The notes: generated by a model not told the origin, from the sequence alone. DNA of 33,684 nucleotides from Prevotellaceae bacterium (GCA_031263585.1 JAISFN010000197.1:1-33684); one strand, 5' to 3'. Positions 7,190 through 24,931 are shown, counted from the stretch's first letter. Numbers and translations: made by a program.

Positions 7190-7485
7190 ATAACTTATCA
7201 ACAGGGTATTATTTAAATTGGAGTTATAACATGGTTATATCTCAAGAGTATACCGTTGCTTTTGATGTAGGAGATGTTTGGTGTTGAAAACTTATTTTAC
7301 GTAGGCAAACCCTGTTATGATATTTAATGTTTTGATAATAAGTATTTTGATAAATAAATAAGCTAAGAAACCTGTTTTTACAAAATCTTTTCTATTTCTT
7401 AATTGAATCATAACTTTGGCTAAAAATATTCGATATATTTTTACACAACAAAACCATACTATTATTAACAAATAACTAATTGTTT
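7190..7485. other. Upstream region of the TonB-dependent receptor
   Basis: These 296 AT-rich bases contain a likely -7 element, TAACTTTG, at 7411-7418, which would give a leader of about 60 bases. A short 6-bp inverted repeat (TATAAC...GTTATA, 7225-7239) is seen but is too short to call an operator. No gene is visible. Confidence 0.45.
7411..7418 (+). promoter_or_regulatory. Putative -7 element for the TonB-dependent receptor
   Basis: TAACTTTG matches the Bacteroidota TAnnTTTG -7 consensus and lies 67 bases before the ATG. No clear TTTG sits 19-20 bases upstream, so the call is tentative. Confidence 0.4.
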
Positions 7486-10400
7486 ATGAGATTAAAACTA
7501 CTATCGACCATTGCTATTATGGCTATGTTGATTTTGTTTGGCTCCACGGCTGTGGGGCAGGTAACTACATCAGGTATTGTCGGGACTGTTTACGACAATC
7601 AAAATGCAGGCTTAGTTGGCGCTACAGTAAAAGCGACACATACTCCGTCCGGAACGGTTTATTTTGCAGTTACTCAGGGGGGAGGTAATTTTTCCATTCA
7701 AGGTATGCGTATCGGAGGCCCTTATGATATCGAAGTTTCATTTATTGGATTTAATACGGAAATATTGACAGATGTATACCTTCAGTTAGGTGAGCCTTTT
7801 TCATTTAGAGTATCGTTGGCGGAAGAAAGCCTTACCTTATCCGAAGTGTTAGTTATAGGTACAAAGCGTTCGGCATTTAACGCCGAAAAAACAGGCGCAA
7901 GTACCAATATTAATAATGGACAAATTCGTACGCTTCCTACTATTAGCAGGAGTGTCCAGGATATCGCCCGTTTGTCGCCTTATGCCAGCGGCTTGAGTAA
8001 CGGTATGGGTTTTGCGGGCGGCGACGGCCGTTCGGCGAATTTTACGCTGGACGGAGCGAACTTGAATAATAATTTCGGTTTGAGTTCGGATTTGCCCGGC
8101 GGCGGTAATCCGATTTCTATTGACGCTATCGAAGAAGTTCAGGTTGTAATAGCTCCTTTCGATGTACGCCAAACAAATTTTATCGGCGGGGGAATAAACG
8201 CTATTACAAAATCGGGAACCAACACATTTAAAGGAAGCGCTTATTATTTCCTGCGTAATCAGGATATGCGCGGTAATAGAATCGGTGATCACGATTTTGG
8301 CGAACGTGCAAAAGAGTCGAGAACAACTTATGGTTTTACGCTTGGCGGCCCGATTATTAAAAATAAATTGTTTTTCTTCGGAAATTTTGAATATGAAAAA
8401 TCTCCGCAGCAAGTTATTACCTGGCGCGCCTCAGCCGATGGCATTTCTGATCATCAAACAGTTTCGCGTGTTACCGAGAGCGATTTGCAAAAGGTTTCGG
8501 ACCATTTGAAAAATAAATACGGCTATAATACAGGTTCTTACAATGATTTTCCCGCCGATGAGAGTAATTTGAAATATTTGCTTCGTTTAGACTGGAATAT
8601 TAACAATGCTAATAAATTTAGTTTACGTTACAACCATACAAAAAACGAAGGTTGGAATCCCCCCAACGGAAACTCGACCGACGGTAGTTATCGCGACAAC
8701 GGGAAAAATCGTGTCGGAGAATATTCATTTTCATATGCAAATTCCATGTATTCAATGGATAATGTAGTCAATTCGATAACTGCAGAATTGAACAGCCGTA
8801 TCAGCCCAAAAATGTCGAATCAGCTCCTTGCCACATATTCGCAGATCAGGGACACTCGTGGTTCTACTTCCGATCCTTTTCCGTTTATTGATATTATGAG
8901 CGGTGATATCGCTACTGGCGCGGCAGCGTTAGATCCCTATATTTCGGCAGGTTATGAATTGTTTACATGGAATAATGGCGTAACAAATAAGGTTGCCACC
9001 ATTACCGATAACTTTACATATTATATTGATAAGCATAAATTTACGGCAGGTATTAGTTACGAACACCAGTATGCCGATAATAATTATATGCGTAATGGAA
9101 CAGGTTATTATCGTTATGCCAGCGTAAGCGACTTTTTGAATGGCGCGGCTCCGGTCGATTTTGCATTAACATACGGCGCTAACGGTGAAAAGAAACCTTC
9201 TAACGCAGTTGCTTTCGCTCAGGTTGGCGTTTACTTGCAAGACGAATGGAATATGCTTGATAATTTAAAACTTACAGTTGGAGTTAGAGGCGATAATATT
9301 ATATTTTTGAATGATATTATGACCAACAACGCCATTAAAGAGCTTGACTTTGGCGGTAGGCATATCAACACCGGTATCTGGCCTAAATCAAAAATCAACT
9401 GGTCGCCCCGTCTCGGCTTTAGTTATGATGTAAAAAAGGATAAATCTTTAATCGTTCGTGGAGGAACAGGTTTATTTACAGGTCGTTTACCTTTGGTGTT
9501 CTTTACTAATATGCCTAGTAATGCGGGTATGAATCAAATGCTTATGAGAGCTCGAACCTTTTTCAATTCCGACGGTAGTGTAAATAACCGCGACTCGGAA
9601 TTGGATAGGTTAACCGGAGGCCTGATTACCGATGTGGATGAAATGATTAGAGTAATGGATTTCCAAACTGTAATTACTCCCGAAATGGGTAGTGTTCCAA
9701 GTTCAATTGCAGGCGTGGATCCCGATTTTAAAATGCCGCAGGTTTGGAAAAGCTCATTGGCCGTTGATTATGAAATTCCTGTTAAGTTCCCGTTCATGGC
9801 GACGGCGGAAGTTATGTATACTAAAAACATAAACGCCGTAAGGTTGGATAACTATGCTGTTAAAACTGCAGAGAGCGGCGCTTGGGAAAGGTTTGCCGGC
9901 CCCGACAAACGTTACATTTACCCTGCCAACATGTATTACAACAATATAACGGACGCTAGTGTGTTGACAAATACAAATCAAGGATACGGATATACCTTTA
10001 ACGTTACGCTGAAAGCGCAACCGGTAAGAGATTTAGACCTTATGTTTGCCTACACGCGTACCGAAATGAAAGAAATTTCGGGTATGCCCGGTAGTAATGC
10101 CGCTTCGGCATGGGGCAACCTTGTTACTGTTAACGGACCGAATTTGGCCGATGTACAGCGTTCGCAATATGTTGTTCCCGACATGTTTATAGGTTCTCTT
10201 TCATACAGATTACCCGATATGCGCTACAAAGCCACTACCATCAGTTTATTCTATCGCGGCTATTCTGCTTCGGGATATTCATTTACATATTCGAATGATA
10301 TGAATGGCGACGGACGTAGCAATGACCTGATTTATATTCCGAATAAAAAAGGCGATATAAAGTTTATTTCGCAAGCGGATGAAGATGCTTTCTTTGCATT

Positions 10401-10785
10401 TATGGAACAAGACCGTTATTTGAAAAAACACAAAGGTGAATATGCCGAGGCTTATGCCGCTCGCGCACCTTGGGTACACAAATTTGATTTGCGCATTCTA
10501 CAAGATTTTTATGTGAATGTAGGTAAAACAAAACATACCTTGCAACTCAGTTTGGATGTGTTGAACGTGGGTAATATGCTCAATACGGAATGGGGCGTTA
10601 GTAAAAATATGAATGCTAGCGGTAACGGACGAATTTTGAGATATGAAGGAAAAGATGCGAGCAATACGCCTTCGTTTTCAATGACAAAGGTTAGCGGCGA
10701 ATATCCTACCAAAACCTACGATACTAACTTGTACTTTAGAGAATGTTGGTCACTTCAAATAGGCTTGCGTTATATTTTTAATTAA
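7486..10785 (+). CDS. Oar-like TonB-dependent outer-membrane receptor
   Basis: This 1099-aa outer-membrane protein starts at ATG 7486; an in-frame TTG six bases earlier is unlikely. The signal peptide ends near AVGQ (about residue 25). A carboxypeptidase-regulatory-like beta sandwich follows (about 27-115, IVGTVYDNQNAGLVGATV), then a plug domain (about 125-240) and a large 22-strand-type barrel ending in an aromatic residue (LQIGLRYIFN). The SARP/Oar-type plug (DARQTNFIGGGINAITKSGT-like segment near 215-245) places it with the Oar-like group, not with SusC. No SusD partner is adjacent. The substrate cannot be told from sequence; Oar proteins have been linked to cell-surface functions as well as uptake. 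A hairpin terminator follows, so it is probably transcribed alone. Confidence 0.9.
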   Translation: MRLKLLSTIAIMAMLILFGSTAVGQVTTSGIVGTVYDNQNAGLVGATVKATHTPSGTVYFAVTQGGGNFSIQGMRIGGPYDIEVSFIGFNTEILTDVYLQLGEPFSFRVSLAEESLTLSEVLVIGTKRSAFNAEKTGASTNINNGQIRTLPTISRSVQDIARLSPYASGLSNGMGFAGGDGRSANFTLDGANLNNNFGLSSDLPGGGNPISIDAIEEVQVVIAPFDVRQTNFIGGGINAITKSGTNTFKGSAYYFLRNQDMRGNRIGDHDFGERAKESRTTYGFTLGGPIIKNKLFFFGNFEYEKSPQQVITWRASADGISDHQTVSRVTESDLQKVSDHLKNKYGYNTGSYNDFPADESNLKYLLRLDWNINNANKFSLRYNHTKNEGWNPPNGNSTDGSYRDNGKNRVGEYSFSYANSMYSMDNVVNSITAELNSRISPKMSNQLLATYSQIRDTRGSTSDPFPFIDIMSGDIATGAAALDPYISAGYELFTWNNGVTNKVATITDNFTYYIDKHKFTAGISYEHQYADNNYMRNGTGYYRYASVSDFLNGAAPVDFALTYGANGEKKPSNAVAFAQVGVYLQDEWNMLDNLKLTVGVRGDNIIFLNDIMTNNAIKELDFGGRHINTGIWPKSKINWSPRLGFSYDVKKDKSLIVRGGTGLFTGRLPLVFFTNMPSNAGMNQMLMRARTFFNSDGSVNNRDSELDRLTGGLITDVDEMIRVMDFQTVITPEMGSVPSSIAGVDPDFKMPQVWKSSLAVDYEIPVKFPFMATAEVMYTKNINAVRLDNYAVKTAESGAWERFAGPDKRYIYPANMYYNNITDASVLTNTNQGYGYTFNVTLKAQPVRDLDLMFAYTRTEMKEISGMPGSNAASAWGNLVTVNGPNLADVQRSQYVVPDMFIGSLSYRLPDMRYKATTISLFYRGYSASGYSFTYSNDMNGDGRSNDLIYIPNKKGDIKFISQADEDAFFAFMEQDRYLKKHKGEYAEAYAARAPWVHKFDLRILQDFYVNVGKTKHTLQLSLDVLNVGNMLNTEWGVSKNMNASGNGRILRYEGKDASNTPSFSMTKVSGEYPTKTYDTNLYFRECWSLQIGLRYIFN

Positions 10786-11110: not shown

Positions 11111-11188
11111 TATTGGTCTATTATATAAATATATAAAATCTATTTTTTCAGCAAAATAAAATCTGGAATCTATATTAAGTAATTGAAA

Positions 11189-12733
11189 ATGCAACGGGTA
11201 TTTGTTATATTTATTTTATTGTTTTGTTTAATAGCGAATTATACATTTTCTCAGGATTTACTCCCTCCCGACTTAAAGAGCGTGAGTATTAATCCCGGAA
11301 CCGGCAATATTCTTGTGAAATGGACTAAGCCCGATGACGAAAATGTTACCCATATCGAAATATCGCGGCGCCCTTACGCCGGAAACCTATATTCTTTCGA
11401 CTCGATAGGGGCCGTATATCTTCCCGGTTCTGTTTTTATTGATAATGATGTTACGGATATAAACGAGGAACGGCAAACATACCGCATACGTTCGGCAAAC
11501 GATATAAAATACAGCGCTATCACCTCAATGCATTTGACAATGACAATTAACGCGGTTTATAATGCTTGCGGTAATGAAATCGAAGTGAGGTGGAACCCTT
11601 ATAAACAATTGTTTATTGATGCTAACGGAAAGATTGTTGAACCGCATGAACCCGAAGAAACCTTCAATAAATCGATAAAATATGAAGTATGGGGTTATGC
11701 CGGTTCAGGTACATTTAACGAAGGTAACGCCGTTAAACTAGGAAATACGGTAAGCGGTACAGTTGATGTGCTGGAAGACCTTAGCGAGGGAAGCAAGTAT
11801 CATTTGTTTGTAAAAGCCTTGTTGCCGAACGGCGATACCGCATCATCCTATCGTATGGAGGTTGAAACTACGGCACGGCGTGCACCATCGTACATGAATA
11901 TCGATTCGGTGATAAGCGTTAACGGGACAGTAGAACTTTATTTCGGGATCGATAAAAATACCCAGCTCGATACATTTGCCCTATACCGCAACGATGAACC
12001 CAATAAGCCGATTTATTGGTTCCGGGATGGGCCTCCTGCAAAACATATCGATAGGAATATCCAGCTCGGTTTAAGCTATAATTATCATTTAGGAGTGTTT
12101 CGATGCGGAAAATTATTGCAAACTACCGATACGGTTAACAATATCTTGTTAATGGTTAACAGTACCGGGCAGTCTACGCTATTAAGGTGGGCGGAGTTTA
12201 CCAATAAACCGGCAAAATATGAACTTACACGGATTGAACCCGAACCCGAAGAGCTTGTTTATTCGGCAACAGATATATATACCTGTAACGATGAAATAAA
12301 GCCCTTTTTGGAAGATGGTTTTTTCAGGTATTGTTATTCGCTCGAAGCCGATAACGGGCAGTCGTTAGCCCGCAGCGAACCCCAGTGCATAACAGTGGAG
12401 CCTATTGTAAACATGCCCGATGCGATTGACCCGCTTAGCGATATTACAAATCCGGCTACGGGCATGAGCCGGAACCGCTTTGGCCCGATTCTTTTATTCA
12501 AAGATGATAAATACCGGTTTACCCTTGAAGTTTTTAATAAGGCCGGCATTCGTATTTTTGCATCGACCAAGGAGTTTACGGATATGTTATCTCCCTTTTA
12601 TCATTATTGGGACGGGCGTTATAACAATGATTACGTTAGAGAGGACGTATATATTTACAGTTTGAAATTTGAATTTAAAAATCGGAAACCCTATACGCAG
12701 AACGGAACGGTTACGGTAGTATACAGGCAGTAG
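11189..12733 (+). CDS. Secreted Fn3-like protein with degenerate type B sorting domain
   Basis: This 514-aa protein starts at ATG 11189; a TTG two codons earlier is weaker. Residues 1-21 are a signal peptide ending FSQ. The body consists of fibronectin-III-like beta sandwiches (about 25-115, 120-230 and further copies), with features such as GNILVKWTKPDD and SIKYEVWGYAG. The last 100 residues (about 412-514) follow the gliding-motility-associated type B C-terminal fold: VFNKAGIRIFAS, then YYHxWDGRY-like HYWDGRYNNDYV and a final TVTVVYRQ strand. The usual FTPNGDGxND motif at the start of this domain is replaced by a divergent DPLSDITNPATG segment. It is therefore probably exported to the surface, though recognition by the T9SS is uncertain. 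It precedes the (p)ppGpp gene by 38 bases. Function beyond surface location is unknown. Confidence 0.8.
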   Translation: MQRVFVIFILLFCLIANYTFSQDLLPPDLKSVSINPGTGNILVKWTKPDDENVTHIEISRRPYAGNLYSFDSIGAVYLPGSVFIDNDVTDINEERQTYRIRSANDIKYSAITSMHLTMTINAVYNACGNEIEVRWNPYKQLFIDANGKIVEPHEPEETFNKSIKYEVWGYAGSGTFNEGNAVKLGNTVSGTVDVLEDLSEGSKYHLFVKALLPNGDTASSYRMEVETTARRAPSYMNIDSVISVNGTVELYFGIDKNTQLDTFALYRNDEPNKPIYWFRDGPPAKHIDRNIQLGLSYNYHLGVFRCGKLLQTTDTVNNILLMVNSTGQSTLLRWAEFTNKPAKYELTRIEPEPEELVYSATDIYTCNDEIKPFLEDGFFRYCYSLEADNGQSLARSEPQCITVEPIVNMPDAIDPLSDITNPATGMSRNRFGPILLFKDDKYRFTLEVFNKAGIRIFASTKEFTDMLSPFYHYWDGRYNNDYVREDVYIYSLKFEFKNRKPYTQNGTVTVVYRQ

Positions 12734-18792: not shown

Positions 18793-20661
18793 ATGAAAAA
18801 AATTCTTTTATCGTGTTTAACAGTTTTGTTTGCATTATCGATTGTTAATGCGCAAACTTTTAATTTAACGCCAAATCCGCCTAGTCCCAATCCTGGCGGT
18901 CGCGCTTTATATGGCGAAAAAACTTTATTTATTTGCCAGGGGCAACAACGTCCGGTTGATTTAAGTTACGACGTATTAGGCGAATACCTTAGCTTAGATA
19001 AAGGACACTGGGACGCGGTATGGTCGCCTGTTGGATTGCCGCTGCCTGCAAGCACCTATGACGGACAAAATGTATTTAAAGTAATTGATGCCGGGCTTGG
19101 CGTTTATGTGTTTGACTTTTATCCTAACGTAGGAGCTACATTTTGCGGAGTTAATGATGGCCATTATTTCAGGGCTTATGTAGTTATTGTTCCTTCGTTT
19201 ACAAGCGAGGAGTTTGAAACGATTGAAATTTGCTGGTGGCGTAGAGCCGCTGAATTGGCGGCTGTTAGTAATGATCCTCTTGATTACATTCCTCAATCAA
19301 CTAAGGATCTTGTTACTAGCTTTGGCGGTACTTTTACAGCATCCCCTACTAATTGGACAAATATTACGGCTAATGATGCGTTGAATGTAACGTACCATTA
19401 TTCAGCTGATATTACATTTACTATTAATGGCGTAAATAATTATCCTTGCGATAATACGTTTACGGTGAAAATGTCTACAAAAGTAGTTGAAGAGCCTAAT
19501 GTACTTGCAGCACAAACTCGCACTATGTGTGTGTCAGAGGCCAAATTAGAATCTCCAAAAACAGCTAAGCAATTCTTTGGCCGTATAACTCGCCCCGGCG
19601 ATTCTTATACTCCTCAAGCTCCGGCTACTGATCCTATTATTTTTGCTGAGTTGGCAAAATTGACGGTTCCAGGTACATATAACTTTGAATATAAATATCC
19701 CGATTGTACTGACCAGTCTCCGCAAATGTTAACTGTAACAGACGTGCTTATTATTACTGCTGATGATGCTGCTCCTCAATATCTTCCTGCTGAACTTACG
19801 GTGTGTAAGCCTGATTTAACGGCTGATATTATGTTTTTAAATACAGCATATGACTTGGCGCTACCTACGGTTAAAGCTTATATGGGTAATAAAGCAGTTC
19901 ATTGGTATTATGTTGGACCGAATAAAGACGGCAGCTCTTCTTCACACCCAAATCCGTTTGTTGGTGGTCTTAATCCAAGTTTTGATAAAAGAGAATTGTC
20001 GGCAAATGTTCCTTATTTCTTTAAATTTGCATTAGATGCATCGGCCGGAGTATGTTCGGCAGGCGCTAGCGATACGCTTACAATTATAGGTTTTGACGGT
20101 ACAAGCGCAGGAGATGGTCGTTTGCAAGTTTGCTTGAAAGATGCAACTTATAACTTAAGTGAAATATTAGGCTTGAAAACTAGTGTTGCCGTATGGGATT
20201 ATGTTCCTGCTGTGCCTGTTAATGGAACTCCGTTACTTTCCGGATCCCCCCAAAATACTATTACTGTAAAAGAAAGCGCTCCTAATGCAACATTGTACAG
20301 TACTTATAAATATGCATATAACCAATCAGGCCCTGGCGCTTGCGGAAGCTCTACAGGCGTGTTCTATTTAACGGTTACCGAAAATATGGTTGCTAGTACA
20401 GATATTACAGAAGCGTTCTGTATTACCTCGCTTCCGGCTAGTGTAAACATGTTTTATGTTATGGGTATCCAAGTCCCTGGTGCATTCACTGTAACAACGG
20501 GGGCAGCAGCTCCTTATTTCAATACCACAACGGGTATTTTGGATATTGTAAGTCTATCTAATTTGGGAGTTGCTGATTATGACTTTGAATTTGCGCCAAC
20601 TGCTGGTGGTTGCATCACAAATACAATTAAAATCAGAATTTCAATTGTCTCTTCATTATAA
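18793..20661 (+). CDS. Secreted protein A with six paired-cysteine repeats
   Basis: This 622-aa protein has a signal peptide (MKKILLSCLTVLFALSIVNAQ, about 1-21). I chose ATG 18793 because it gives the cleanest signal peptide; ATG 18787 is also possible. The mature chain has exactly 12 cysteines in six pairs: 48-118, 147-219, 246-305, 338-421, 447-517 and 543-607. Each pair brackets one domain of about 75-100 residues. Domains tend to start with Cys and an aliphatic DL..VLG segment, then G-x-W (GHW at 71-73), and end with Y-x-F-x-F and Cys, often Cys-Gly. I do not recognise the domain; an Ig-like disulfide sandwich is likely. No T9SS sorting domain is present at the C-terminus. It is first in a three-gene plus-strand cluster. 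Confidence 0.88.
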   Translation: MKKILLSCLTVLFALSIVNAQTFNLTPNPPSPNPGGRALYGEKTLFICQGQQRPVDLSYDVLGEYLSLDKGHWDAVWSPVGLPLPASTYDGQNVFKVIDAGLGVYVFDFYPNVGATFCGVNDGHYFRAYVVIVPSFTSEEFETIEICWWRRAAELAAVSNDPLDYIPQSTKDLVTSFGGTFTASPTNWTNITANDALNVTYHYSADITFTINGVNNYPCDNTFTVKMSTKVVEEPNVLAAQTRTMCVSEAKLESPKTAKQFFGRITRPGDSYTPQAPATDPIIFAELAKLTVPGTYNFEYKYPDCTDQSPQMLTVTDVLIITADDAAPQYLPAELTVCKPDLTADIMFLNTAYDLALPTVKAYMGNKAVHWYYVGPNKDGSSSSHPNPFVGGLNPSFDKRELSANVPYFFKFALDASAGVCSAGASDTLTIIGFDGTSAGDGRLQVCLKDATYNLSEILGLKTSVAVWDYVPAVPVNGTPLLSGSPQNTITVKESAPNATLYSTYKYAYNQSGPGACGSSTGVFYLTVTENMVASTDITEAFCITSLPASVNMFYVMGIQVPGAFTVTTGAAAPYFNTTTGILDIVSLSNLGVADYDFEFAPTAGGCITNTIKIRISIVSSL

Positions 20662-20682
20662 TTTGTATTAGGCAATAGTTTG

Positions 20683-20724
20683 AATCATTCCGGGATAATT
20701 AATTAAAATTTTTCCGGAATGATT
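20683..20724 (+). terminator. Hairpin between surface genes A and B
   Basis: AATCATTCCGG (20683-20693) pairs perfectly with CCGGAATGATT (20714-20724). The loop is AT-rich and 20 bases long. No strong U-tract follows, so it may attenuate or protect the transcript rather than fully terminate it. Confidence 0.55.
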
Positions 20725-20827
20725 TAATCAAAAAAGAACAAAAATTTATACTAATCAACATGATATAACATACTGGCGGATTATTTAATAACGCTTTTTA
20801 TGTTTTATTATTTATAGAAATTTTATA

Positions 20828-22804
20828 ATGAAAAAAATATTTTTAGCAATTGCGTTTTTTATGGGTATTGGCTTGCATGTTAATGCTCAGCTAGCTCCCC
20901 TCGATCCTACTGATTTAACAACTAATAAAGGCTTTGTTTATGCATCCGAATTATGGATGTGCGAATCTTATGTTGCTAATATCGACATGTCGTATGAGGC
21001 ATTTGGTAAGCAACTTTCATCCGAAGGTAAATGGTACGAAATAATACCGGGCACTTATCTTGTAGCAAAAGAAGGAAATAACTACAAAGAAATTGATGAG
21101 GCTAACAAATTGAATAACGGGATGCCGGTTAGTAACATCTTTAATGCTGTTGGCCGGGGTTCGGGCATATACGAGTTTGTGTATATCAATGAAAAAGATG
21201 GATTTTGCGGTATGTTAGTAGGCGACCGCGCTATTTTCCGCGTATACGTTGTACCCGAACTGAAAGGTTTCTCAGTTATTACCCAGCTTTGTAACGGCAC
21301 TCCGCTTGATGTTACTTTCGAGCCTAATATTCCTGCCGATATAAAAGATTTCATGGTAACCCAAATGGGTTGGAGCTTCAAATACAAAACATATCCTCAA
21401 GGCGATGCTGTAGCAATGCCTATTACCGCTTCTATAGCCGGCGTATTCCAATATACTTATGAGGTAGATGATACACAAGGTAATTTCAGCGGCAAGCATA
21501 CAGCATTGAATAGCACCAAATACAAATGTGCCGCTGATGCTCGTATAACCCATACTGTTAATCTTAACGAGGGTGCAATTACAACTGCCCCCGGCGATAT
21601 CGAAAAAACATTCTGTTTGGCTTTCGAATTGTTGAATAACACCATTAATGGTAAATATTTAGTTAATCTTAACAGCATATTAAACTACAATGCTCCGGTT
21701 GATGCCGCTGGTCCTTGGACAGTAACTGCAGGCGATACCTATGCTACTATTAATAAACTTACAGGCGCGGCTGAAATCGATTTACAAAAAATAGTAGATG
21801 ATGCCGTTACTCTTCCTTTCGAAGTTGTTTTCACATATACCTATAAAGATAATTGTGAAGATCCCAATTCAACAAAATCAATAAATGTAAAGTTTATTTT
21901 TGGCAATACTCAAATTAATGACGAACTAGTTGATAAAGATACAACAGTTTGTCGTAACTTGTATGCCGGCGACGTGAGCTTGTTAGGTTTATTGCAGGTT
22001 GAAGTTCCTTCAACTGCCGGTACATGGACAGATAAAGATAACAATATCTTATATACCGGTACAATTAATTTAAGCAATTTGTATGACGGCGAACGGTATC
22101 CGTACAGTTACTTTGTAAGCCCTGCTATGTCAGCTGATTTTTGCGGTATTACAAACTTCCTGGCTGTTTTAGGCGTTACAGTTGAAAATGTTGACGGCTA
22201 CAATAGCGGTCAGGCACAAATTTGTAAAGAAGTGTGGGCAAATAAGAATAAAAAAATAAACTTGTCTACCTACATTGCAGGTTTGCCGAAAGATTACAAG
22301 CCAAACGAGCTCAAATGGTATATCTACGATCCTGAATTAAAGGATTGGACTTTAATTACTACGGATTATACTCAATTTGCGGTTGATGATAAGCTGAAAG
22401 TGGGAACAAACTTATTCAAATTTGAATATTCAACCAAGTGCGGCGATGCCGAAGGTAGGTTGTTTATTACAGTTACCGACCGTATAACGAACTATGAAAA
22501 TAAGTACGTTACCTACTGTTACATTGACAATGCCGCTAAAGCAATTTATTTAGAACAAATATTAGGTGTTGGCGGAATAGAAGGCACATGGTCGGTTGAT
22601 TCAAGCGGCGAAGCTGTGAATGCCACTTATTTTGATGCCGCTACTGGAGTATTCAAAGGTCGTGAACAATTTGAAAGCACCGGTTTAGGCGCCGATAAAA
22701 CTTATATCTTCAAGTTTGAACCGAAAGACGGTAATCAAGGTTGCGGAATAGATCACGAAATATTTATCCATGTAACTCTGTCTACTGATATTGTAACTCC
22801 ATAA
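20828..22804 (+). CDS. Secreted protein B with six paired-cysteine repeats
   Basis: This 658-aa protein starts MKKIFLAIAFFMGIGLHVNAQ (signal peptide about 1-21). Like protein A, it has exactly 12 cysteines, again in six pairs: 45-127, 155-234, 263-343, 375-439, 466-538 and 564-639. G-x-W recurs about 24 residues after the first Cys (GKW 67-69, GTW 398-400, GTW 586-588), and Cys-Gly ends several units (127, 439, 538, 639). The match in architecture with protein A at only moderate sequence similarity points to an old duplication. No sorting domain, lipobox or membrane anchor is present at the C-terminus, which ends TDIVTP. It lies 166 bases after protein A. Function is unknown; a structural surface role is inferred. 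Confidence 0.88.
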   Translation: MKKIFLAIAFFMGIGLHVNAQLAPLDPTDLTTNKGFVYASELWMCESYVANIDMSYEAFGKQLSSEGKWYEIIPGTYLVAKEGNNYKEIDEANKLNNGMPVSNIFNAVGRGSGIYEFVYINEKDGFCGMLVGDRAIFRVYVVPELKGFSVITQLCNGTPLDVTFEPNIPADIKDFMVTQMGWSFKYKTYPQGDAVAMPITASIAGVFQYTYEVDDTQGNFSGKHTALNSTKYKCAADARITHTVNLNEGAITTAPGDIEKTFCLAFELLNNTINGKYLVNLNSILNYNAPVDAAGPWTVTAGDTYATINKLTGAAEIDLQKIVDDAVTLPFEVVFTYTYKDNCEDPNSTKSINVKFIFGNTQINDELVDKDTTVCRNLYAGDVSLLGLLQVEVPSTAGTWTDKDNNILYTGTINLSNLYDGERYPYSYFVSPAMSADFCGITNFLAVLGVTVENVDGYNSGQAQICKEVWANKNKKINLSTYIAGLPKDYKPNELKWYIYDPELKDWTLITTDYTQFAVDDKLKVGTNLFKFEYSTKCGDAEGRLFITVTDRITNYENKYVTYCYIDNAAKAIYLEQILGVGGIEGTWSVDSSGEAVNATYFDAATGVFKGREQFESTGLGADKTYIFKFEPKDGNQGCGIDHEIFIHVTLSTDIVTP

Positions 22805-23119
22805 TGTTTTGAGATTATTTGGATTGGATTATGAAAAAAATCTAATTACAGATAAATGATTGAAAGGGAAACTTCCCTAAATATTTAGGGAAGTACCTTT
22901 TCTTTAAAAATTATATTTCTATAAAAGCTTCTGATAGTTCTTCCATATCAGAAATAAAAATAAAAAAAGAAGGAAGGATTTTAGAATAACTGTGTTACAT
23001 TTACTGGAGTTATTCATTTTAAAATTTGTAAATAATATGCACTAATGATTTGTTAATCAAAAGGTGTACAATATATATACTGTTTTTAACGACATTCACA
23101 TAGACGAAAACTCAAGGTT
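22805..23119. other. Spacer between surface genes B and C
   Basis: These 315 bases hold a strong hairpin terminator (22863-22902) and then AT-rich sequence with purine runs. I see no gene and no clear -33/-7 pair, though a promoter for gene C would be expected here. Confidence 0.5.
22863..22902 (+). terminator. Hairpin terminator after surface gene B
   Basis: ACTTCCCTAA (22871-22880) and TTAGGGAAGT (22885-22894) form a perfect 10-bp stem with loop ATAT, extended outward by AAAGGG and CCTTTT. TTCTTT follows. It lies about 60 bases after the stop codon. Confidence 0.75.
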
Positions 23120-24931
23120 ATGTTAAAACAATATAAGCGACTGCTTTATATTTTGGGTATGGTAGTTTTTCTGAATCTACTGCATTATCCTGCATTGGCG
23201 CAGGGAGGTGATGAACCCAAAAAAGATACCACTGTTTGTAAAGAAGTAGCCATGCCGCTTGACTTATTCAATGTTTTAGGAATTCAGATTTCTCCAACAA
23301 ATGGATATTGGACTGATGGCAATGGAAAAATAGTAGATAATATTTTTGATCCAACAGTGTTGGATATCGGTAGTTATAATTTTGTTTTTACAATAACTAC
23401 CGAAAATTACTGTGGTGCGTATATAGGTAAAACGTATAAGGTAGAGGTTGATATAGAGGGATCTACGAAATTACAGGCGTATTATTCTTATTTGGATCCT
23501 GCATGGTGCGAATCGCAGCCCGGAACTTTAACAATTGATAGTATGGATTACGGTACTTTGAAGTATTCATACATGTTGTTACGGAAGGGTGAAGGGCAAA
23601 ATGATACTATAGTACGATGGACAGATGTGGAAAAATTGCCTCCCGTTGTTGTTGATAGTACTTTAACGAGCGGAGAATATTATTTATATGTAATGGCAGA
23701 TCCTGTAGATGGAGAAGAGCTTTTTGGAGTATGCTACACACCTTTGTGGAGTGATACAATTACGCTTGTAACCGTCGGAAGTCCTATTAATATTGATACA
23801 GTGGAACTTTTAGAACCTGAAGTTGGTGTTGACGGTAAGTTTACGGTTGAAGCTACGGGTGGCGTCGGCGAGTTGGAGTACAACTGGTATTTGGATAAAG
23901 ACGGCTCTTATGATCTTGAAAACCCAATACATACTGGAAAATCTATGATAACTTCATATAATAATAAGTATTGGTTAAGGGTTACCGATGAAAGAGGTTG
24001 TTACAAAGATTTATTCTATGAACCTAAAGGCAATATAGTGTACTTCCAGGATTACTACTTCTTCTGTCAAGGTAATTATATTGAAATGTTCTCAGGCTTG
24101 TTGATTGACTCTAAAGATGCCCTTGCTAGCTTGATATTCTCGACAGCTCAAAATCCGAATTTATGGATTGGCCAGGGTTATACAATTAAGGTTTACCCGA
24201 GCAACGAAGAGGGCGTATCTGCCGAAGATAGCAATAACTGGTTAAATGAAGCAATTACCGAAGGCTACACAGCTAATAACGCTACAATTGAGAAATATAT
24301 TGAGGTATACGACTCAAAGGGCATATTAGTAAAACGCCAGATGATAACTGTTAAGATATTCAACCGTCCTGTAGACTTGGCCTTGAACTTGGTAAATAGC
24401 AAGTTGGAATGGGATGTTGAGGATATGGTTAAGTTTGAGACTACGCCTGCAGATATGGCTTGGTATGTATACTTCTTGAACAATAAGTTACTTGATTCAA
24501 TCGAAACAAATAACATATTCGAAGTAAGCGCCATGAGGTTTACCGGTACTGTTCAGGATATGATGAAAGTACATGTACTTGAAGATGTAGTGATGGATGT
24601 TTATGCAATGACTAAGGATAGTACTTGTACGTGGGTAGTAAGCGAACCGGTAGTAGTTAACATACCATTCCCGAATACATTTACGCCTGATGGCGATGGT
24701 AACAACGATGTATTCTTGGGCGGCAGCAAGTTCGCTAATCGTGAGTATCACTTAGAAATAATCAACCGTTTCGGACATCGCTTGTACTACGGAGATAAAG
24801 GTTGGGATGGTACATACAAGGGTACTCAAATGCCGTCGGGAGCTTACTATTACATTGTACACCTGAAGATGGAAGACGGTACTACTAAGGTACTGAAGGG
24901 TGCAGTAACTCTTATCCGAAAGGAACGGTAA
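23120..24931 (+). CDS. Surface protein C: paired-cysteine domain plus T9SS type B sorting domain
   Basis: This 603-aa protein has a signal peptide (about 1-28, ending ALAQ). Residues 36-112 form one paired-cysteine domain like those of proteins A and B (C40-C98, GYW at 62-64, ending YCGAYIG). A second Cys pair (130-205) and a PKD/SprB-like stretch (about 222-300) follow, then a further beta-rich region to about 510. The C-terminus (about 515-603) is a canonical gliding-motility-associated type B sorting domain: FPNTFTPDGDGNNDVF, IINRFGHRLYY, GWDGTYKG, PSGAYYYIV and GAVTLIRKER. The type IX system should therefore export it to the surface. It is the only cluster member with this signal and may anchor or escort A and B, which is inference. 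A terminator follows. Confidence 0.9.
   Translation: MLKQYKRLLYILGMVVFLNLLHYPALAQGGDEPKKDTTVCKEVAMPLDLFNVLGIQISPTNGYWTDGNGKIVDNIFDPTVLDIGSYNFVFTITTENYCGAYIGKTYKVEVDIEGSTKLQAYYSYLDPAWCESQPGTLTIDSMDYGTLKYSYMLLRKGEGQNDTIVRWTDVEKLPPVVVDSTLTSGEYYLYVMADPVDGEELFGVCYTPLWSDTITLVTVGSPINIDTVELLEPEVGVDGKFTVEATGGVGELEYNWYLDKDGSYDLENPIHTGKSMITSYNNKYWLRVTDERGCYKDLFYEPKGNIVYFQDYYFFCQGNYIEMFSGLLIDSKDALASLIFSTAQNPNLWIGQGYTIKVYPSNEEGVSAEDSNNWLNEAITEGYTANNATIEKYIEVYDSKGILVKRQMITVKIFNRPVDLALNLVNSKLEWDVEDMVKFETTPADMAWYVYFLNNKLLDSIETNNIFEVSAMRFTGTVQDMMKVHVLEDVVMDVYAMTKDSTCTWVVSEPVVVNIPFPNTFTPDGDGNNDVFLGGSKFANREYHLEIINRFGHRLYYGDKGWDGTYKGTQMPSGAYYYIVHLKMEDGTTKVLKGAVTLIRKER

Follow-up and report, generated by a model that had tools for sequence, protein, structure and literature searches.

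What are the repeated cysteine-bearing units of two adjacent secreted proteins, and how would such proteins reach the cell surface? We addressed this question for positions 18793-22804 of a 33,684-nt stretch of Prevotellaceae bacterium DNA (JAISFN010000197.1; the whole stretch is referred to here as the window). The region encodes protein A (622 aa; 18793..20661) and its distant paralog, protein B (658 aa; 20828..22804), both defined by their open reading frames (ORFs), cysteine (Cys) spacing, structure models and orthologs; all features given in this coordinate format lie on the plus strand. An earlier, sequence-only reading of this DNA had drawn attention to six two-cysteine units in each protein. 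It overlooked the main point, which is that units 5 and 6 constitute a strictly C-terminal module common to many other secreted proteins.

The C-terminal module: occurrence and position

The module spans about 190 aa and two domains, and was recognized with a profile built from an alignment of units 5-6. In A it covers 20113..20658 (C447, C517, C543 and C607; E 6.8e-38) and in B 22214..22801 (C466, C538, C564 and C639; E 3.8e-43). A search with A also matched the C-termini of two further proteins in the window's genome, and at least eight module copies were found there. Copy numbers reached 15 per genome, and the module was present in 12 of the 13 sister-genus genomes; because these genomes are drafts, the counts are lower bounds. 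Across the family, the module occurred in 14 of 399 genomes, all but one of them within two genera (the exception being a weak partial match, E 7e-4), and it was absent from 392 other genomes sampled from the order, a sample without the sister genus. Two more modules of the window's genome (L104 and L105, on G000 contigs C123 and C122) sit at contig ends with their carrier genes cut off; repeats of the kind found in module proteins may be breaking the assembly.

The position of the module proved uniform, as all 59 distinct stop-terminated copies end 0-11 residues ahead of the stop codon. Each of 28 module proteins checked carries a single copy and no CHU_C domain, the C-terminal domain (CTD) that defines type B cargo of the type IX secretion system (T9SS). 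A hydrophobic N-terminal signal was evident in 25 of these 28, the remaining three being two ORFs truncated at contig edges and one with an uncertain start. Module proteins measure between about 620 and 4,737 aa, and the parts ahead of the module are highly varied, with FG-GAP/DUF11/Ig_7, IgGFc_binding/SprB and GEVED/Big_9 among them. Very large single genes ending in the module include L120:1021-14880 (4,619 aa) and L125:493-14706 (4,737 aa).

The module and CHU_C on homologous proteins

Within the window's genome, the IgGFc_binding/Ig_7 protein C124 ends in CHU_C and its homolog C69 ends in the module, the two being 38% identical over 713 N-terminal aa (E 5e-135). Four more proteins of this family with the module occur in the sister genus, the highest identity being 43% over 650 aa, the value obtained for C124 against the module protein L131 (E 2e-155). 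The other family comprises C79 of the same genome, which ends in CHU_C, and the module proteins L128 and L048 (35-37% over 570-636 aa, E about 1e-97 or lower), with L133 as a further module-bearing member. Together, these homologous proteins with different ends indicate that two protein families carry either tail.

SprA (SprA_N) was detected in the window's genome (G000) and in four of the five relatives checked. The window's genome also encodes CHU_C cargo and Por_Secre_tail cargo (three matches, none of them A or B), so that a canonical T9SS is encoded alongside the module. Module proteins show several traits of T9SS cargo in general: a Sec signal, a common domain at the extreme C-terminus that is predicted to be a beta-sandwich, and SprA in the host.

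We considered whether the module could be a known tail. The type A CTD (PF18962) gave no profile match at the C-terminus of A or B. The type B CTD (CHU_C; PF13585/TIGR04131) was absent from A, B and the 28 module proteins, and was matched by protein C, encoded downstream of B. The type C CTD (NF033708, ChiA type), a precedent for a rarer class that differs from types A and B, matched no module protein. Downstream of module genes, the fetched DNA likewise showed no frameshifted CHU_C in close proximity, protein C beside A and B excepted.

Like CHU_C, the module lies at the extreme C-terminus, is common to diverse multi-domain secreted Bacteroidota proteins and alternates with another tail on homologous proteins. 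It differs from CHU_C in lacking sequence or profile similarity, in its size (about 190 aa and two domains, versus about 85-100 aa), in containing Cys and in having no PorP/SprF neighbor that we could find.

Cysteine spacing and fold of the units

Recounting reproduced exactly the earlier description of adjacent proteins with 12 mature Cys each, in six pairs with the reported spacings. A contains 13 Cys, including C8 inside the signal peptide, which leaves 12 in the mature chain (gaps 70/29/72/27/59/33/83/26/70/26/64); B contains 12 (82/28/79/29/80/32/64/27/72/26/75). Upstream of the module, Cys spacing delimits units 1-4 of A at 18934..19146 (C48-C118), 19231..19449 (C147-C219), 19528..19707 (C246-C305) and 19804..20055 (C338-C421), and units 1-4 of B at 20960..21208 (C45-C127), 21290..21529 (C155-C234), 21614..21856 (C263-C343) and 21950..22144 (C375-C439). 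When 12 Cys were placed at random in simulations, perfect long/short alternation arose in 0.2% of trials, and the spacing ranges given by the sequence-only reading arose in 0 of 2,000,000. All 12 Cys are invariant in the A/B alignment (16 sequences from nine genomes), which has only 24 invariant columns overall, and they are retained in A and B orthologs at about 25-30% identity.

The residue pattern proposed for the units is looser than claimed: counted by eye, Trp occupies the G-x-W position in 9 of the 12 units, with the full G-x-W in five and a closing Cys-Gly in five. Profile comparison of unit against unit related A1 to B1, A5 to B5 and A6 to B6 (94-97%), as well as A6 to B3 (94%) and A5 to A6 (93%). 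Cross-similarity between units was seen for A5, A6, B3, B4, B6 and A1, and not for A2, B2 or A4.

Structure prediction, which had been suggested as a check, yielded models of A and B that each consist of six immunoglobulin (Ig)-like beta-sandwich domains in series. The AlphaFold2 models, computed from the 16-sequence alignment, had a predicted local distance difference test (pLDDT) of 76.8 and a predicted template modeling score (pTM) of 0.67 for B, and 71.1 and 0.59 for A. Over units 5-6 of B, pLDDT was mostly 70-90 except in the 500-520 loop, with lower values in A. In almost every modeled unit, the first strand ends with the first Cys, and the second Cys is placed in the turn preceding the last strand. 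Foldseek ranked chains of Ig or cadherin domains highest, the base of Aureispira GhpA among them, with low overall TM-scores (0.1-0.2), as expected when flexible domain strings are compared whole.

Relatives of the units in other Bacteroidota

Neither A nor B matched a Pfam family at E<=1 or any NCBIfam model, and to this extent the earlier view that the units are of an unmatched type holds; they are, however, Ig-like, and some of them have relatives at the profile level. A phylum-wide search with units 5-6 matched proteins (E 5e-10 to 1e-3) that we label Flavobacteriaceae from their sequences; their genomes are assigned to a different family within the same class. Tandem repeats make up the matched regions and follow the pattern ...LC..TVDLF..LGGTP..GGTW......G.FDP....GTYTYTV....C..., hereafter Cys-GTW-Cys repeats. 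Using hhalign with a repeat profile made from 34 sequences, we obtained 92% for A5, 95% for A6, 67% for B3, 89% for B4, 83% for B5 and 55% for B6. The same comparison gave 1-34% for A1-A4, B1 and B2, which are linked to the repeats just by Cys spacing and predicted topology.

The repeats and the module units share a first Cys, an aliphatic stretch, G-x-W and a closing Cys near the last strand. They differ in placement: the repeats are internal and in tandem, with CHU_C at the end wherever the protein end is visible, whereas the module itself forms the protein end, without CHU_C. No specific model for the repeats exists in the Pfam and NCBIfam libraries searched; the tandem copies in L109 (G912 contig 1), L114, L112 and L113 could seed a new family model.

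The repeats in turn compare at 80% with Ig_7 (PF19081, 'Ig-like domain CHU_C associated'), against 2% for CHU_C as a negative control. Ig_7 resembles the units in being Ig-like, with a Cys near each end and a Trp strand, and it occurs in several of the same large proteins. Membership of A and B in Ig_7 itself was rejected, as neither protein reached the Pfam cut-off and direct hhalign comparison gave 0.1-14%; the link runs via the GTW repeats only. A direct profile link of the units to CHU_C was likewise discarded (at most 28%, mostly below 3%). A and B also do not qualify as SprB-type gliding adhesins: they contain no SprB repeats (PF13573), which some other module proteins have, and no CHU_C. 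Searches of PDB sequences with the module, full-length B, the GTW repeats and a module protein of the window's genome (L008) returned no relevant homolog of the units. At the level of sequence profiles, the recognizable units form a divergent and distant branch of an Ig repeat that occurs in T9SS cargo and is unnamed in the libraries searched. Since the units are related to a common Flavobacteriaceae repeat, the domain type itself is not exotic.

Cysteine pairing in units 5-6

The sequence-only reading had proposed a repeated disulfide-bonded domain. A tandem beta-sandwich with two conserved Cys per unit bears out part of this proposal, but the pattern of Cys loss in units 5-6 fits bonds between units better than bonds within them. 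Among 57 distinct modules, 44 retain all four Cys (CCCC), 12 lack C1 and C4 (xCCx) and one lacks C2 and C4 (CxCx). All 12 divergent modules thus keep C2 and C3, which lie 24-29 residues apart in different units and would both be partnerless under a within-unit scheme. The simplest reading is that, at least in the xCCx clade, C2 and C3 would be bonded or adjacent, with C1 paired to C4. On the module tree, the losses amount to two changes, possibly one, and with so few evolutionary events the evidence for pairing between units is suggestive only. An earlier Cys, about 25 residues ahead of C1, persists in modules without C1, and this speaks against a bond between the two.

We put the chance that disulfides are strictly within units (C1-C2 and C3-C4), an arrangement compatible with any reading of the tail, at slightly below even. 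Every unit has exactly two Cys, their placement recurs in almost every modeled unit, and nearly all Ig_7 and GTW repeats keep their Cys pair; the joint loss of C1 and C4 in 12 of the 57 modules is what speaks against it. Cys co-variation within the Ig_7 and GTW repeats showed too little variation to decide the pairing.

The A-B-C cluster and its surroundings

Protein C (603 aa; 23120..24931) is the third gene of a conserved cluster. It has one Cys-pair unit near its N-terminus (C40-C98; 23237..23413, by Cys spacing), counted earlier as a thirteenth unit, and a T9SS type B CTD at 24668..24907 with both Pfam and NCBIfam matches. In G128, the C ortholog is matched by the part of the A/B profile that covers unit 1.

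Among 60 relatives searched, one genome of a different genus had A, B and C adjacent, and profile searching across 300 members of the family, together with a scan of GTDB species genomes, yielded eight loci beyond the window's genome. The order A-B-C holds wherever the contig permits and spans two genera. A and B orthologs retain the 12 Cys, some species' B orthologs having a few extra, and C orthologs end in the type B CTD in all loci. At one locus, a lipoprotein gene separates A from B (L059:4512-6338, lipoprotein-like, with a metallopeptidase-like HILGLGFEH stretch); at L045/L056 such genes occupy the place of A, upstream of B. Directly upstream of A, the sister genus, unlike the window, has a gene for a secreted protein of ~304 aa with no Pfam match (L007:577-1488; equivalents in L042, L043, L044 and L059); the window has UDG there, on the opposite strand. 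The relatives' contigs come from metagenome-assembled genomes labeled Kf353, Gx485 and similar, and the window's genome belongs to the same GTDB family; the two codes named here denote gut samples of Kalotermes flavicollis and Glyptotermes (PMC11707648).

The N-termini of A and B, read from the sequence, are hydrophobic Sec signal peptides (MKKILLSCLTVLFALSIVNA followed by Q in A, MKKIFLAIAFFMGIGLHVNA followed by Q in B) whose AQ ending fits the Bacteroidetes Q-rule (PMC5837995). A terminator-like hairpin lies between B and C (22871..22894), such matches being no commoner than chance, and promoter scans gave no result clearly exceeding chance. Elsewhere in the window, positions 11183-12733 encode a 516 aa protein with a weak, truncated C-terminal CHU_C match (E 2e-4), possibly a second type B cargo, and positions 7480-10785 encode a 1101 aa, TonB-receptor-like outer-membrane beta-barrel with a CarboxypepD_reg domain.

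Discussion

We think it somewhat probable that A and B are exported surface rods in which the terminal Ig pair takes the part that a CHU_C or Por_Secre_tail CTD plays in other T9SS cargo. In this reading, the chain would cross the inner membrane by Sec, the SprA translocon and a shuttle would recognize the C-terminal Ig pair, and the N-terminal Ig domains would then be displayed on the outside as rods. We infer T9SS dependence, surface anchoring and an adhesive role for both proteins. Because the A-B-C order is conserved across two genera, the three proteins probably form one surface complex; any binding to gut flagellates, wood particles or other bacteria would be speculative. Strict C-terminal position, a single copy without CHU_C, varied N-termini and natural swaps make the module a candidate tail as judged from genome comparison.

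Published T9SS CTDs are 7-stranded beta-sandwiches in which conserved motifs set the fold and not the translocon contacts (PMC10994853), which renders an Ig-like replacement plausible. Type B signals may require >200 residues (PMC10202324), and together with the beta-sandwich fold of CTDs this makes a two-domain Ig signal believable.

Several observations weigh on the other side. None of the module genes has a PorP/SprF-like gene beside it in the fetched DNA, compared with six of nine CHU_C genes, some module-gene flanks being short, and sequence comparison detected no resemblance between the module and the type A, B or C CTDs. Its co-occurrence with the T9SS is non-discriminating, as this system is widespread in Bacteroidota without the module, and paralogous expansion of a common tail could yield the C-terminal position without any sorting role.

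The lack of PorP-like neighbors would also suit an alternative in which the terminal Ig pair serves in surface docking or polymerization and export depends on another feature, docking occurring, for example, onto C with its own type B CTD. A and B adjoin C in every genome where the contig permits, and Cys pairs could support an interlocked tail. Module genes elsewhere, however, have no CHU_C neighbor in the fetched DNA, no other outer-membrane export signal is visible in module proteins, and homologous proteins bearing either the module or CHU_C are what alternative translocation signals would produce; we regard docking as unlikely. Still less likely is that these are ordinary Ig-like repeats whose common end reflects descent and shuffling, the last two domains having no particular role: the distant kinship to internal Flavobacteriaceae repeats and the similar type of units 1-4 fit this, but neutral shuffling would leave internal module copies, and the exclusively terminal, single-copy module, its varied N-terminal partners and the homologous N-terminal parts with either tail all count against it.

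If the terminal Ig pair is a T9SS tail, it would extend a known series, a third and rarer CTD class having been described beside the two well-studied ones (PMC10202324). We give an even chance to the module being a fourth class of T9SS sorting domain, a disulfide-containing Ig pair, possibly with inter-domain Cys bonds, that one termite-gut Bacteroidales lineage derived from internal adhesin repeats and that assumed the role of CHU_C in part of the surface proteome. The kind of domain is known in outline; the candidate novelty is a strictly C-terminal, lineage-restricted pair that alternates with CHU_C. The comparison has also revealed a common adhesin repeat, Cys-GTW-Cys, as unmodeled in the Pfam and NCBIfam libraries searched. 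The exported proteome of Bacteroidota is defined by its T9SS tails. Should the module prove to be such a tail, some of these symbionts' largest surface proteins, at up to about 4,700 aa, would escape current scans; one could also ask how a translocon starts to recognize a new signal, a question that the swap pairs within one genome make testable.

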